Under the pieces are notes generated by a model. It ran no database searches and was not told the DNA's origin. It worked only from the letters and a program-made list of their open reading frames with translations. This document shows positions 13,097 through 18,083 of a stretch of DNA of 64,000 nt, piece after piece. Position 1 is the first letter of the stretch. Every line of letters starts with the position of its first letter. The stretch lies in contig NZ_MSCO01000001.1 in NCBI RefSeq assembly GCF_002954705.1, positions 2,031,248-2,095,247 on the forward strand, written 5' to 3'. Source of the DNA: Aliivibrio sifiae (GTDB lineage: Bacteria > Pseudomonadota > Gammaproteobacteria > Enterobacterales > Vibrionaceae). The translations under genes and the position numbers were made by a program.

Positions 13097-13137
13097 TATT
13101 TTAATAATTTAAAAACAAACTGCTTTTCTCTGGACAT

Positions 13138-13158
13138 AAAAAAGCCCCTCAATATGAG
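13138..13158 (-). terminator. Distal half of chemotaxis-operon terminator, split by IS island
   Basis: Joined with 18039-18066, this restores a strong minus-strand terminator: AAGC-CCTC stem arms, loop ATATT, GAGG-GCTT, then six T. The 11-bp CTCAATATGAG at 13148-13158 is repeated at 18039-18049 as the target duplication. Confidence 0.8.
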
Positions 13159-14219
13159 TAATGCCACTCGCTTAAGGGCGAGTGCCATGTTTATTAGGAT
13201 ATTTGACTGCCTTTTTAAAAACTGCTCGGGGATATGGTTTCCTATTCCGTTTCTTGGGGAGAATAAGCCGTTTCCCACTTTCCCCTGAGAGCCTTTAAGT
13301 TTTTTGGTATCGCTCCTGGGCTTCGTGTATCACTCGCCCAAATCATCTCGTCCATAATTAAAAATAGTGCATTGATAAAGCTGATCCGCAGGGGCTCAAC
13401 TTCGTGCTGTTTAGCCATTTCAGCCTTACGATGTTGTAGCTGGTTAATATTCCCCATAACTCCTGATATACGCCAACTTTTTTACTGCTTGAGCTCTCCG
13501 TAACTGCGCTCGATTTCCCAACGCTCCCAATACACTTTAACCAATGTATCAAATGGGTAGCGTTCCGGGCATAGGCAAGAAGTAATAAAGCCTTTGATTT
13601 CACCCGTAGGCGTTGGGATAAGAAATAAGTCGAGCCTGCCACTTTTTATCAAGATAAGGAGCAAGCTTTTGAGCTTGTGGTGAAACGGGCATATCAATGA
13701 GATGATCATGTTCAGTATAACTCTCAACGATGTCATAACGCATCTTAGCCTTGATTGGTGTTAACCAAGGAGTGTTACTGCTTGCGCCACGCCAGGTGGT
13801 AAATAGCTCTGCAGAAGTGAACCCTCTATCAAAGAGTGTTAATGAATCATCAGGGGCTGAGCCCACTAGTTGTTGAGCATAGGATATTTCACTATTTGTC
13901 ACAGGCCCAAAAGCAGCATCAGAGACAAGATGGCTGCGTGTTGACATCAATGTTACCGCCAGCACACTCGGAAGCGATGCCCCTTTTTGAGCAAAGCCGA
14001 AGTGTTGATTTTCTTCTGTATTATGAGTTTTGAAATGTGTGCCATCGACATCTAAAGGAATATGTTTACTGAACACATCGATTGGACGTTCGTGGCAAAA
14101 CTCTGCGGTAATTTGTAACTCTTTTGAAAATTCAGACATAAAAAATCGGCCGTAACTTACGTTACGACCGATTATGAGGCCTCTGGAGGATCGTTCAAGT
14201 AGCTAAACGATCGGCATTA
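13159..14219 (-). mobile_element. IS4-family element, left copy, degenerate
   Basis: The ends are TAATGCCACTCGC (left) and TAATGCCGATCGT (right, read inward). Only ~1.06 kb is present, shorter than typical IS4-family elements (~1.4 kb), and the transposase lacks its N-terminal domain. Between the right end and the transposase ATG is a near-perfect hairpin (14145-14174), AATCGGCCGTAAC paired with GTTACGACCGATT. The same 111-bp right end is repeated at 17928-18038 with only a few differences. Confidence 0.8.
13172..14139 (-). pseudogene. IS4-family transposase, frameshifted and N-terminally truncated
   Basis: Reading from 14139, MSEFSKEL leads into the DDE domain: first Asp in LDVDGTHF, second Asp in LTLFDRGFTS, and the YREK signature in YWERWEIERSYGELKQ. 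The frame breaks near 13620 (after LISYP), near 13480 (just after GELKQ, with a small loss), near 13440 and near 13270. The last segment KRLILPKKRNRKPYPRAV and the stop at 13172-13174 are in a third frame. By comparison with the E. coli IS4 transposase, about 110 N-terminal residues are missing. It is not expected to be active. Confidence 0.85.
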
Positions 14220-14241
14220 CTAATTTTTTAGCGGCCTTTTT
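14220..14241. terminator. Half of a second terminator hairpin next to IS4 copy
   Basis: CTAATTTTTTAG followed by CGGCC and TTTTT reads as the loop, right arm and T tract of a hairpin whose left arm (GGCCG) would lie where the IS4 end now is. CTAA-TTTT-TTAG is the same kind of hairpin apex that forms the outer target duplication. It is probably the original terminator of the adjacent MCP gene. Confidence 0.5.
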
Positions 14242-14308
14242 AATTCTGACTACGGCTGTTATGGTAAATTAGTACTAAGTGTCGTTACGTTAAATCAACG
14301 AAAAAATG

Positions 14309-14320
14309 CCCCCCCCCCCC
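14309..14320. repeat. Run of 12 C
   Basis: An uninterrupted C12 tract 12 bp past the MCP stop codon, in non-coding DNA. Homopolymers this long are unstable during replication and in sequencing. Confidence 0.9.
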
Positions 14321-14332
14321 TTACAATGGGGA

Positions 14333-15955
14333 CTATGATTTATCCACCTTAAAAAATCCCAATTCAGCATTAAGCTCTTTCGTCACTTCGACTACCGATT
14401 CGTTGGCTTTAACTAAGTTGTCAACTCCTTCAATATTCTGCTGAACCAATACACTAATATTTTCAAGTTGATTAGAGATATCAGCGGTTACAGTACTCTG
14501 CTCTTCTGAAGCAGTAACTAAGATAGAGTTCACATCCGAAATGATCGATACCTTTTCGGATATAGCGTAAAACGATTGAATGAGTTGGTCTGTCGTGGAC
14601 TGAGTTAAGCTCATCAAATCCACATTTCGGCCCATTGATTCATCCGCTTGCTTTGATTGGTCTTGAAGCTGTGTAATTATTTCTTGAATATCAACCGTTG
14701 ATTGTTGAGTTTTCCCCGCCAACGCTCTAACCTCATCAGCGACAACAGCAAAACCTCGTCCTTGCTCACCGGCTCTAGCCGCCTCTATCGCAGCATTAAG
14801 AGCCAATAGGTTGGTTTGCTCTGAGATATTATTAATCACATCCACGACACTACTAATACTCTCCGAATGAGCTCTAAGTAAACTAACAATCGTCTGTGTT
14901 TCTGATATTGATTTAGATATCTGCTCGGTGGTGTCGGTGGACTTTTTAAGAGAGGTCTGACTCACCTGTATAATACCGTTTGCTTCCATTGCTAATTGCT
15001 CAGCTCTTTGAGCGTTGTCGGCAACGTCTCTTGCCGTTAAAGATATTTCTGTAGAAGCGGTTGCAATCTGCTCAGCATACGACAATTCATTTAAAGCGTT
15101 AGCCTGACTGATATCAATGAGACCAATAGACTGTTCTTGCTTTTGATTAATCGTCCACATATTGGAATTAACTTGAGATAAGGTAGCGTTCAGTTTCAAA
15201 GCTAAACTAGATAATGATTCAGAAATTGTATCTAATTCATTATTACTTTTTTTCAGTTTAACTTGAGATAAATCCCCTTCAGAAAGAGAGTTAATCCAAT
15301 TCAAAATTAAGGGTAAATTTCGAAACTCTCTCCTCATAATAAAGATCATAACAAAAACAAATAAAACACAAAACAAGACAACTCCCATCAAAGAACGCCA
15401 CACGCTACCTTCGATTTCTTTTCTTATGTCTTTAGTTTTAATACCATTACCCATGAACCAGCCCCATCCACTCGTTTTTAATGCAACACTGTTAACGTCT
15501 TCCACCAAGCCATTAGTAGTAAGTTCCCATGTATAATTTATTACGTCAGAGCCTCTCTTGTTAGAAAGGTTAGATATCAAGGCACTCTCAGTTTCCTGAC
15601 CTGAAATATCAGCAAATAGCTTACCTTGAAATTGAGGATCATTAGGCGTTGAGAGAAAACGTAACGATTCATCATCCCCTCTCGACGCAATCCAAACATA
15701 CTCAACATCCGAATAATCAATCCCCATCAAGATCTCTAAAGCAATATGTTTAGCTTGTGACTCGGACAAATAACCACTTTGCGTTAACTGCTCTAGTTTA
15801 GAGACTACTTGACCTTGTATATTTAAAATTTGTTCAACTCTAACTTTATTTTGCTCAGACAATAAGTTAAATGAAGAAAAGGCACCATACGAAACCAAAA
15901 TCACAGAAAGAGCAACACACAAAAACACCAACATTATTATTATTCTTTTAAGCAC
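14333..15955 (-). CDS. Methyl-accepting chemotaxis protein with periplasmic Cache-type sensor
   Basis: 540 aa from GTG 15955, chosen because AAGG lies 8 nt upstream and the product starts [10 protein letters not shown]; a GTG five codons earlier is in frame. Layout: TM1 (about 4-26), periplasmic sensor (about 30-185) resembling single Cache domains with [20 protein letters not shown] and GWGWFMGNG motifs, TM2 (about 185-207), HAMP (about 210-262), then a long coiled-coil signalling domain with the conserved tip [36 protein letters not shown]. It is intact, unlike every other ORF in the island. The ligand is unknown; the Cache type suggests a small organic acid or amino acid. No C-terminal CheR-binding pentapeptide is seen. 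It could feed the CheA/CheW system encoded next to it. Confidence 0.9.
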
Positions 15956-16064
15956 AGTATAGACCTTCACATAAATAAGCCCTATCCATAGTAAGACAGA
16001 GCAGGGATAGAGAGAACATTAACTTAAACACTCAATATAACCGTCATTGGAATGTAAATATCGC

Positions 16065-16876
16065 GGGGTTATTGCAAAAAATTCAGTTTAACGCCAAGAT
16101 CCCACAATCTTTCATATCATTTCGTAGTTAATGACCAATTCTGAATTTAAATGGAAACACTTTGCACCAGAAATTATACTTTGGTGTTTACGTTGGTATG
16201 GTTCAACACCAATGAGCTACGCAAATCTCAGTGATATGCTCGCAGAGCGAGGCATATCGGTTAATCGCTCCACTATTTACCGTTGGTTTATTGAGTATTC
16301 CCCTAAATTACGAAAAAAATTACGTCGTAATTATCAATTCATTAAAACCGACTCATCCTGGCAACTTGATGAAACTTACGTGAAAGTAAAGGGGAAATGG
16401 AACTATCTGTACCGAGCCATCAACAAGCAGGGGGAAACTTTAGACTTTTATTTCTCTCACAAGAGAAATAAAGAAGCGGCTTATCAACTCCTTAAACGTT
16501 GCTTGAGATATTATGACCAAGAACAACATCCCAAAACGTTAAATACAGATAAACATTCTTCATACGCGAATGCTATTGCCCGATTGAAGAAGGAAGGACG
16601 ACTACGAGAGGATGTGGAACAGCGGCAAGTTAAATGCCTCAATAATGGCATGAGTCCGATCATGCCCCCATTAAGAAGTTGATCGTGGCCGCCGGTGGTT
16701 TCAAACTGAGGAAGCTAGCCTAGTCAACCATTCAAGGATTTGAATCTTTGCGAATGTTGAATAAGGGACAGTTTGATTTCTGGTTACGTAATGATAAACG
16801 TGAAACCGTAGTACGGGAGAGATCCGCCTTCATGAATCGCTTATTCAATGTTGAGGTTGTTACCTAATTCTTGAAA
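16065..16876 (+). mobile_element. IS6-family element remnant (right end missing)
   Basis: The left end GGGGTTATTGCAAA resembles IS6/IS26 inverted repeats, which end in TTGCAAA, and lies 66 bp before the transposase start, the usual spacing. No matching right end is found: sequence breaks into the IS630 remnant about 10-20 bp after the transposase stop. The exact break between 16868 and 16884 is uncertain. Confidence 0.7.
16131..16867 (+). pseudogene. IS6-family transposase, frameshifted
   Basis: The first ~175 codons read well: FRWYG-like start (CLRWYGSTPMSYANL), helix-turn-helix VNRSTIYRWF, first catalytic Asp in SSWQLDETYVKVKGKW and second in LNTDKHSSYANA. Near 16650 one base is lost, so the NNGIESDH catalytic Glu region is out of frame. 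In the alternate frame APIKKLIVAAGGFK continues, is interrupted by a TAG at about 16720, and resumes as STIQGFESLRMLNKGQFDFW to the stop at 16865-16867. It is inactive. Confidence 0.88.
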
Positions 16877-17929
16877 AAGACCCTATGGACAGCATAGATA
16901 ATATTGATTTCAAAAAACTTGCCAGCCAACAAAAATCTATTCAAATGAAAATGCGATTACTCGCATTAGCTCACTTTAAAGATGGCTACTCCCGAACCCA
17001 AATCGCTAAGTTCCTCAAAGTAAGCAGGACAAGTGTAAATAAGTGGGTACAAACATTCCTTGCTGAAGGGCTTGAAGGACTCCACGAAAAACCAAGAACA
17101 GGTCGCCCAGCAGTACTCAACAACGCAGACAGCTAAGCCAGTTCATAAAATCATGTGCCGAAGATTCATCGGGAGGCAGATTAACTGGTACTGATATTCA
17201 TGCTTATATCGTGAAAGAGTTTGGTAAACATTATCACCCAGATTCTATCTACTATCTGCTTAATCAAATGGGCTTCTCTTTGATAACTTCACGCTCCAAA
17301 CATCCTAAACAATCCCAGCAAAATCAAGACGATTTTAAAAAAATTCAAAATTGAAACGATCCTTAAGATCCCCGGTCACATGAGTCTTGATAACGTTGAT
17401 GTCTGGTTTCAAGATGAAGCGAGGTTTGGTCAACAAAACACGACAACTCGACTTTGGGCTGAACGTGGTTCTAGACCAAGAGCAGTAAAACAACAGCAGT
17501 TTGAATATGCATATTTGTTTGGCTCAGTATGTCCTTCTAGAGGTATTGGCGAAGCAATGGTCGTTCCTTGGGTTAACCAAGATATTATGGTTGAGCACCT
17601 TGAGCAGATCTCCAAGGTGACTGAGAAAGGCCGCCATGCGGTGATCATCATGGATGGTGCAGGTTGGCATACAAATGACATTGCAGAGCAGTTTAGCAAT
17701 ATAAGTATCATCAAACTCCCGCCATATTCACCAGAGCTAAACCCAATAGAACAAGTGTGAGTTGGCTTAGACAACACTATCTTTCCAATCAGAGCTTTAC
17801 CGGCTATGAAGATATTGTTTCGAAAGTATGCACAGCATGGAATCGATTCTTGGAGAGTACAGATAGGGTCACTAAAATGTGCACGAGGGACTGGATTAAC
17901 CTGACCAGTTAATTTTCCAGATTGGTATA
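16877..17929 (+). mobile_element. IS630-family element remnant (left end missing)
   Basis: The right end is CCAGATTGGTA, joined at a TA to the IS4 sequence ACTTGTAACTC; the intact IS4 copy has TAATTTGTAACTC there, so IS630 inserted at a TA inside the second IS4 copy. The expected left end (TACCAATCTGG) is absent; the element runs straight into the IS6 remnant. A deletion removed both the IS630 left end and the IS6 right end, together with most of the second IS4 copy. Confidence 0.75.
16885..17912 (+). pseudogene. IS630-family transposase, multiply frameshifted
   Basis: An N-terminal HTH (MKMRLLALAHFKDGYSRTQIAKFLKVSRTSVNKW) reads to about 17130, where the frame shifts. The middle part (FGKHYHPDSIYYLLNQMGFS) is in a second frame to about 17350. 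The catalytic domain has Asp in WFQDEARFG, Asp in IIMDGAGWH and Glu in PPYSPELNPIEQ. One base is lost at about 17758 (EQV then SWLRQHYLSNQSFTGYEDI in another frame). The stop TAA is at 17910-17912. The complete DDE set is recognisable but split over at least three frames. Confidence 0.88.
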
Positions 17930-18038
17930 ACTTGTAACTCTTTTGAAAATTCAGACATAAAAAATCGGCCGTAACTTAGGTTACGACCGATTATGAGGCA
18001 TCTGGAGGATCGTTCAAGTAGCTAAACGATCGGCATTA
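17928..18038 (-). mobile_element. IS4-family element, right-end fragment
   Basis: 111 bp nearly identical to 14109-14219, including the first codons of the transposase (MSEFSKEL), the inverted-repeat hairpin before it and the terminal CGATCGGCATTA. It is flanked on the right by the outer target duplication. The rest of this copy was lost at the IS630 junction. Confidence 0.85.
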
Positions 18039-18066
18039 CTCAATATGAGGAGCTTAATAATTTTTT
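18039..18066 (-). terminator. Proximal half of chemotaxis-operon terminator, split by IS island
   Basis: CTCAATATGAG followed by GAGCTT and an AT-rich stretch ends the DUF2802/cheW operon. The partner arm and T tract are at 13138-13158, 4.9 kb away. As it stands the terminator is broken. Confidence 0.75.
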
Positions 18067-18083
18067 GCTATTAAAAACGAGAA

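Follow-up and report, generated by a model that had tools for sequence, protein, structure and literature searches.

How does an insertion sequence (IS) come to lie exactly in the tip of a transcription terminator? This question is raised by positions 13138-18066 of the Aliivibrio sifiae stretch analysed here (64,000 nucleotides, hereafter the window), where a unit bordered by ends of subgroup IS4 of the IS4 family splits the terminator of a chemotaxis operon at its apex. The preliminary description of this locus had suggested a structural target preference of the element, and proposed that the empty sites of its other copies be scored for terminator hairpins against random positions. We carried out this check on related copies from many genera, and our results make it likely that IS4-subgroup elements target the dyad of terminator-type inverted repeats; we are less confident as to how the target is read.

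The split terminator and its intact counterparts

The 11-bp target duplication CTCAATATGAG is read at 13148-13158 and 18039-18049, directly outside the IS tips (TAATGCC starting at 13159 and GGCATTA finishing at 18038). Rejoining 13126-13158 with 18050-18072 gives, on the minus (operon) strand, AAGCTCCTCATATTGAGGGGCTTTTTT, which forms a 10-pair stem with one U.G pair and carries six consecutive T, with the initial two being paired in the stem. On the plus strand, the stem of the rejoined site contains a C/A mismatch and the T6 at 18061-18066 starts 5 nt past the stem; therefore, the stem-adjacent T-tract is the A-run at 13138-13143 read on the minus strand. The gene ending at this terminator is present in 14 of the 14 genomes of the genus that were searched, and in 13 of 13 congeners it is followed by an intact, insertion-free terminator (e.g., AGCTCCTCATTTGAGGGGCTTTTTTT), the matched pieces having folding energies of -9.7 to -12.4 kcal/mol. 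These observations bear out the earlier proposal that the duplication and the rejoined flanks restore the chemotaxis-operon terminator. The apex position also stands, but the inserted unit is not the single IS originally described, since what the duplications enclose is a composite of 4.88 kb that has two IS ends.

The inner flank of the left IS copy, at 14220-14241 (CTAATTTTTTAGCGGCCTTTTT), had likewise been described as half a terminator, and this reading was borne out at related loci: a complete two-armed version, AAAGGCCGCTAAAATTTAGCGGCTTTTTTT, occurs in two congeners (G005 and G013) within 89-90% identical sequence. In the genome that contains the window, the partner arm was not found at 0 or 1 mismatch, and 7 places matched at 2 mismatches, compared with 4 for a backward-pattern control. 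A short conserved stretch that runs into a terminator (CTAATTTACCATAACAGCC...) is present at L388:699-746 and 1001-1047, at L389:1001-1047 and at 14226-14272 of the window; it thus occurs twice within 350 bp in L388 and may be a repeated gene-end module.

Empty sites of related copies

A family-wide protein search detected relatives in at least 80 of 329 genomes; 135 copies taken from the matches listed, together with nine from the congener G002, gave 144 copies, and both the ends and the duplication were resolved in 136 of them. A scan of named genomes, covering the best 80 of 399 relatives, resolved 51 loci (in Vibrio, Photobacterium, Shewanella, Psychromonas, Pseudomonas, Colwellia, Idiomarina, betaproteobacteria and others) and left 29 without a duplication. 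Two of 187 sites were dropped for short flanks and 21 of the remaining 185 as duplicates, which yielded a non-redundant set of 164 sites of IS4-subgroup elements from Vibrionaceae and other named gamma- and betaproteobacteria. A site was taken to pass if a terminator-like hairpin with an A- or T-tract was centred on the duplication. The first score was made on one strand with G.T pairs allowed, so that a site could pass on one strand alone, and both strands were then rescored.

Terminator-like hairpins centred on the duplication were found at 143 of the 164 empty sites. In the controls, positions drawn at random from the flanks of the insertions passed in 550 of 16320 cases, intergenic positions of the window in 368 of 7320 and shuffled sequences in 71 of 2720. 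The proposed check thus came out as the preliminary description had predicted, most empty sites of other copies being hairpins. The centre of the hairpin coincided with that of the duplication in 109 of the 143 sites and lay within 0.5 bp of it in 139. Taken separately, 118 of 136 sites passed in the family-wide set and 45 of 51 in the named-genome set, several sites being shared between the two, while the nine complete 1418-bp copies of G002 all passed on the locus strand and eight of them on both strands (L014 fails). Upon rescoring of the 164 sites, 143 passed on the transposase strand, 146 on the other strand, 147 on either and 142 on both; the corresponding flank control gave 737 (either) and 259 (both) of 16320. 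Strand choice matters for a few loci, as L014 and L101 pass in the 136-site scoring and fail in the non-redundant scoring, and L156 does the reverse. The eight family-wide copies without a resolvable duplication are L069, L071, L078, L089, L090, L112, L150 and L195; by eye, some of them lie between two half terminators that do not fit one another, as recombination would leave them.

Arms and complementarity of the target

When the sites are aligned on the edges of the duplication, the left arm shows A at -10 to -4 (94% at -6), followed mostly by G or C beside the cut, and the right arm mirrors it, with T reaching 95% at +6. In the stretch reaching from 3 bp inside the edge of the duplication to 4 bp outside it, 74-87% of sites have complementary bases at mirrored positions, compared with 30-60% predicted by independent columns. 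Target arms and loops vary between sites and do not form a single repeated sequence family of the repetitive extragenic palindromic (REP) or palindromic unit (PU) kind; what they have in common is composition and complementarity. A requirement for a fixed target sequence was accordingly rejected, since the targets differ from site to site.

A model based on arm composition only was run on a 364-kb background, in which strong arm matches are rare. At arm scores of 10-13, hairpins were present at 11 of 14 insertions and at 14 of 52 background sites (Fisher p 0.001), and among insertions scoring below 10, a range for which insertions alone were drawn, 17 of 29 were still hairpins. The 21 sites that fail the hairpin score carry 3.5 A and 3.0 T of 5 arm positions, compared with 1.4 and 1.4 in the background; therefore, they fit recognition of DNA with some tolerance. 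Hence, the arms clearly matter, and complementarity probably makes a contribution of its own. The length of the duplication was correlated with the spacing of the A- and T-tracts, but this spacing contains the duplication, and the correlation was not used.

Family membership and IS ends

The window open reading frame (ORF) at 13600-14139 matches DDE_Tnp_1 (E 1.1e-09), and an intact congener copy matches NF033592 (E 1.8e-72). The residues of the YREK signature, Y(2)R(3)E(6)K (Y307, R310, E314 and K321), are invariant in 10 aligned transposases, including E. coli InsG, and the window ORF at 13482-13736 carries the YREK segment YWERWEIERSYGELKQ. The ends are of the -AATR type of subgroup IS4 (TAATGCC in the window), although some relatives begin with TAAC or CAAT. 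The duplication measures 10-13 bp in 158 of the 164 sites and 14-15 bp in 6, and intact relatives are 1379-1460 bp long, most of them at least 1400 bp, compared with 1400-1650 bp typical of the subgroup. Hence, in transposase family (NF033592/DDE_Tnp_1), YREK spacing, -AATR ends and 10-13 bp duplications, the elements resemble subgroup IS4 as described in the IS4-family review (De Palmenaer et al., 2008; PMC2266710).

Of the 79 distinct IS end pairs, 51 have an inward hairpin followed by a T-rich tail at the end that lies downstream of the transposase gene; in 46 of these 51 the stem starts no more than 10 bp from the tip, so that the terminal repeat forms the 5' arm. The opposite end has an inward hairpin in 17 of 79, with 8 at the tip, and internal IS stretches have one in 48 of 1640. 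An IS4-subgroup element thus often brings a terminator along. The orientation of the IS relative to the neighbouring gene is unbiased (38 vs 35), by which we rejected the idea that orientation follows that gene; therefore, the terminator brought along cannot always replace the broken one of the host. Insulation of the transposase gene would be a more cautious role for the inward hairpin.

E. coli IS4, IS50-type relatives and control families

In E. coli records, 5360 places matching IS4 were detected. The E. coli sample comprised K-12 IS4 and 21 other copies, hand-chosen among 60 of 2739 records and not random; these 22 copies gave 11 distinct sites with a duplication. Nine of the 11 pass, eight of them on both strands, with clear passes at the 3' ends of crr, glgP, bamD, metK, ymcF, glcA and adhE (the last one twice), while the K-12 IS4 site passes just at the threshold and on one strand only. 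The failing sites are in yicI and in an oxidoreductase gene beside paaF. The apex of the adhE terminator was hit in opposite orientations in two E. coli strains (L400 and L403).

The IS4_3 (NF033590) set, L407-L436, had been chosen as an expected negative control and was found to obey the rule. In this set, 45 of 46 ends fit the IS50-subgroup pattern CW------Y---CA-A--W- (Table 1 of PMC2266710), and the duplications measure 8-12 bp as scored, compared with 8-9 bp for the IS50 subgroup, although the symmetry of the sites can lengthen the apparent repeat by chance. Of its 30 loci, 18 were scored, 7 lacking both ends and 5 an exact duplication. Sixteen of the 18 resolved sites of these elements with IS50/Tn5-like ends are terminators hit at the apex, 14 of them on both strands; L407 (G068) and L434 (G033) fail, and L427 has a low score. 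Hence, the trait reaches beyond one subgroup and is not universal among IS50-type relatives.

As a control from another family, we scored three IS3-family elements, two in G002 and one in G228; 5 of the 40 copies fetched (G144) were left unscored, as their left end was not found. Apex hits occurred in 3 of 35 copies (4 on either strand, 1 on both), which differs from the 143 of 164 for IS4 at a Fisher p of about 1e-19. A set assigned to NF033591, which we take to be IS10-type, had a duplication in 4 of 30 loci, and 0 of these 4 pass, too few to weigh. One IS3-family element of G002 (L333-L352) has the ends TGTCTCGTCC..GGACGAGACA, a 3-bp duplication in 19 of 20 copies and the same end toward the terminator beside which it lies. 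Other IS3-family elements, L353-L359 (G002) and L368-L372 (G144), adjoin, by eye, tandem 7-bp repeats whose units vary per copy (e.g., CCTGAAA, CCTAGAC), which suggests that they prefer or create heptamer repeats.

The composite element in the window

The composite consists of a degenerate IS4-subgroup copy, a methyl-accepting chemotaxis protein (MCP) gene, remnants of IS6 and presumably IS630 type, and a second IS4 end. The left IS copy is decayed to 1061 bp, compared with about 1418 bp in intact relatives, and its transposase frame is broken. The features are as follows.

13138-13158, no strand assigned: left half of the split chemotaxis-operon terminator (A-tract, arm and loop), from sequence, intact orthologues in 13/13 congeners and folding
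13148-13158, no strand assigned: target duplication copy 1, 11 bp, CTCAATATGAG, from sequence
13159-14219, minus: degenerate IS4-subgroup copy, 1061 bp, transposase broken (DDE_Tnp_1 in the ORF at 13600-14139)
13163-13186, plus: own hairpin of the left IS end (3' end of the transposase gene), reading inward, from sequence by eye
14220-14241, minus: half of the second terminator, downstream of the MCP gene, its apex interrupted by the left IS copy (present in intact form at the related loci L388 and L389)
14333-15970, minus: MCP gene inside the composite (MCPsignal and sCache_2)
16131-16682, plus: IS6/IS240-type transposase gene remnant (DDE_Tnp_IS240, E 2.3e-40)
16885-17760, plus: remnant of a transposase gene, which we take to be of IS630 type, in separate ORFs (HTH_23, with the HTH part at 16885-17136, and DDE_3 at 17380-17760)
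17928-18038, plus: right-end fragment of a second IS4-subgroup copy (matching the end of the left copy with 97% identity over 111 bp)
18039-18049, no strand assigned: target duplication copy 2, 11 bp, CTCAATATGAG, from sequence
18050-18066, no strand assigned: right half of the split chemotaxis-operon terminator, from sequence and folding

The locus is best explained by one composite that landed in the chemotaxis-operon terminator and that, with its half terminator at 14220, still bears witness to an earlier event. In the simplest history, the terminator of the MCP gene would first have been split by an IS copy, with another copy lying on the far side of this gene; thereafter, the chemotaxis-operon terminator would have received the entire unit, including the half of the MCP terminator now at 14220-14241. 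Recombination between IS copies could also yield the same picture.

The genome contains 12 matches to the IS, counting the window copy and the piece at 17928-18038, and none is full length. By eye, the outer flanks of these end pieces are mostly half terminators, with L009 as an exception, and one pair, L003 and L011, lying 4.4 kb apart, frames a AGAGTATATGCTCT duplication inside GGCC arms. A run of 12 C at 14309-14320, downstream of the MCP gene, is a possible slippage or assembly-error site.

Possible mechanism and alternative explanations

The copies lie at the apex of symmetric sites, they do so across genera, and hairpins are more frequent among them than arm composition predicts. We infer that the transposase itself makes the choice, reading the duplex rather than RNA or an extruded hairpin. 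The preferred target would comprise, in this order, an A-tract whose end lies about 3-4 bp outside the cut, a G+C-rich arm, the 10-13 bp round the dyad that are duplicated, the mirror arm and finally a T-tract. A pair of IS ends, each bound by transposase, would cut both strands symmetrically about the dyad, so that the element would come to sit in the apex of the hairpin; in these genomes, such sites are mainly intrinsic terminators, where copies would therefore collect. As for the structural preference claimed in the preliminary description, inverted repeats are favoured beyond arm composition, though on modest numbers, and the data fit a duplex inverted repeat and an extruded hairpin equally.

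Possibly, though we regard it as doubtful, the transposase recognises sequence or DNA shape alone (A-tract, G+C step, spacer, G+C step, T-tract), with arm complementarity being irrelevant and terminators being hit by resemblance; recognition of this type has reportedly been proposed for IS231A. The very strong arm consensus agrees with this, as do the arms retained at sites with weak hairpins and the observation that all 9 background sites with arm scores of at least 19 are hairpins. It is opposed by the excess of hairpins among insertions with arm scores of 10-13, but not of 13-16, and by the hairpins that persist at insertions scoring below 10. We consider it improbable that targeting is coupled to transcription or to an extruded structure, with a paused RNA polymerase or a cruciform exposing the loop to the transposase. 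Terminators are places of polymerase pausing and possible hairpin formation, and the apex position is precise; however, coupling to transcription does not agree with the lack of orientation bias, with the use of sites within ORFs (13 of the 161 sites with enough flank span an ORF of at least 110 codons, some of them maybe spurious), or with the strong preference for an upstream A-tract, which is dispensable for termination.

Very unlikely, in our view, is selection in place of targeting, in which insertion would be broad and copies would survive only in terminators between genes. The setting of the insertions would be in line with it, as in 129 of 161 cases an ORF of at least 100 codons points at the site and has its 3' end no more than 120 bp away, and the copies of the G002 IS3-family element also lie just downstream of terminators. 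Intergenic selection would not, however, explain why 139 of 143 insertions deviate from the dyad axis by no more than 0.5 bp; IS3-family copies are at the apex in just 3 of 35 cases; and the 21 weak sites, at least 6 of which span an ORF, keep their A- and T-rich arms. Finally, the decay of the composite and the different inner flanks of its left and right IS copies might suggest that the two cases in the window are a coincidence or leftovers of recombination. We give this next to no credence, and coincidence was rejected on the basis of the 143 of 164 sites elsewhere and of the intact orthologous terminators for both window sites.

Several points weigh against targeting of the terminator dyad. 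The copies that survive in genomes have passed through selection, the thresholds for scoring were chosen after sites had been looked at, and a site could be resolved only where its duplication was still recognisable (136 of 144 and 51 of 80). High-scoring arm matches in the background are nearly all terminators, so that modest numbers carry the case for a separate role of the hairpin. At arm scores of 13-16, the share of hairpins does not differ between insertions (0.76 of 17) and background sites (0.75 of 12). Moreover, 16 of 20 copies of the IS3-family element L333-L352 are found immediately downstream of a strong terminator stem, compared with 13 of 1000 random positions; terminators may thus be favoured for more than one reason. 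The different elements occupy different exact positions at terminators, which argues for element-specific recognition, to which selection for safe sites may add.

Relation to known systems and significance

The IS4-family review (De Palmenaer et al., 2008; PMC2266710) calls the specificity of target arms 'spectacular', and lists the work of Hallet (1994) on the target choice of IS231A; in a term search, the word terminator was absent from its main text as available to us. More generally, we found no statement on IS4-family insertion into terminators in the literature searched, which was covered in part and mostly as passages. Beyond what the accessible parts of the review report, the arms are identified here as halves of intrinsic terminators, the dyad and the complementarity are measured, and the type element and many genera are covered. 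Our analyses confirm the observation, and they support and considerably widen the interpretation.

Insertion at the axis of a palindrome, as found here at 143 of 164 sites (142 on both strands), is known for ISRm22, of which 10 of 10 copies lie in REP elements, on the axis of palindromy, and for ISPsy8 at a hairpin axis (Tobes and Pareja, 2006; PMC1525189). ISRm22 also belongs to the IS4 family, in the sister subgroup IS4Sa (PMC2266710), and the other REP-targeting IS belong to other families (PMC1525189). The target of ISRm22 and other REP-targeting IS is, however, a repeated sequence family, whereas that of subgroup IS4 is a structural class of unrelated sequences. Group IIC introns are likewise mobile elements that home to intrinsic terminators, inserting downstream of their stems (Robart, 2007, as cited in PMC3522654); unlike these RNA-based elements, the one described here uses a DDE transposase and inserts at the apex. 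IS231A, another IS4-family element, reportedly uses a symmetric, bendable target, GGGN5CCC in bendable DNA, described as a sequence consensus and not as a terminator. The earlier comparison with IS1397 holds in its logic, insertion at a palindrome axis, but not in family or target, as IS1397 is reportedly an IS3-family element that inserts in the hairpin loops of palindromic units, a fixed repeated target sequence.

Our findings turn the vague 'arm specificity' of a classic IS family into a structural rule that predicts landing sites, those of E. coli IS4 included, and single out intrinsic terminators as safe harbours that are cut at the dyad, a position different from that used by group IIC introns. 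They provide a lead for the site choice of Tn5-type transposases, because relatives with IS50/Tn5-like ends obey the rule, and a cheap means of spotting old insertions and terminators broken by insertions. We tentatively suggest, while thinking it somewhat less probable than its opposite, that homing to terminator dyads is an old shared strategy of the IS4 family (IS4 and IS50/Tn5-type), paired with terminator-hairpin IS ends that insulate both the host operon and the transposase gene. If so, the element would break a terminator yet supply one, through its terminal repeat, at the 3' end of the transposase gene, serving as an inward terminator stem.

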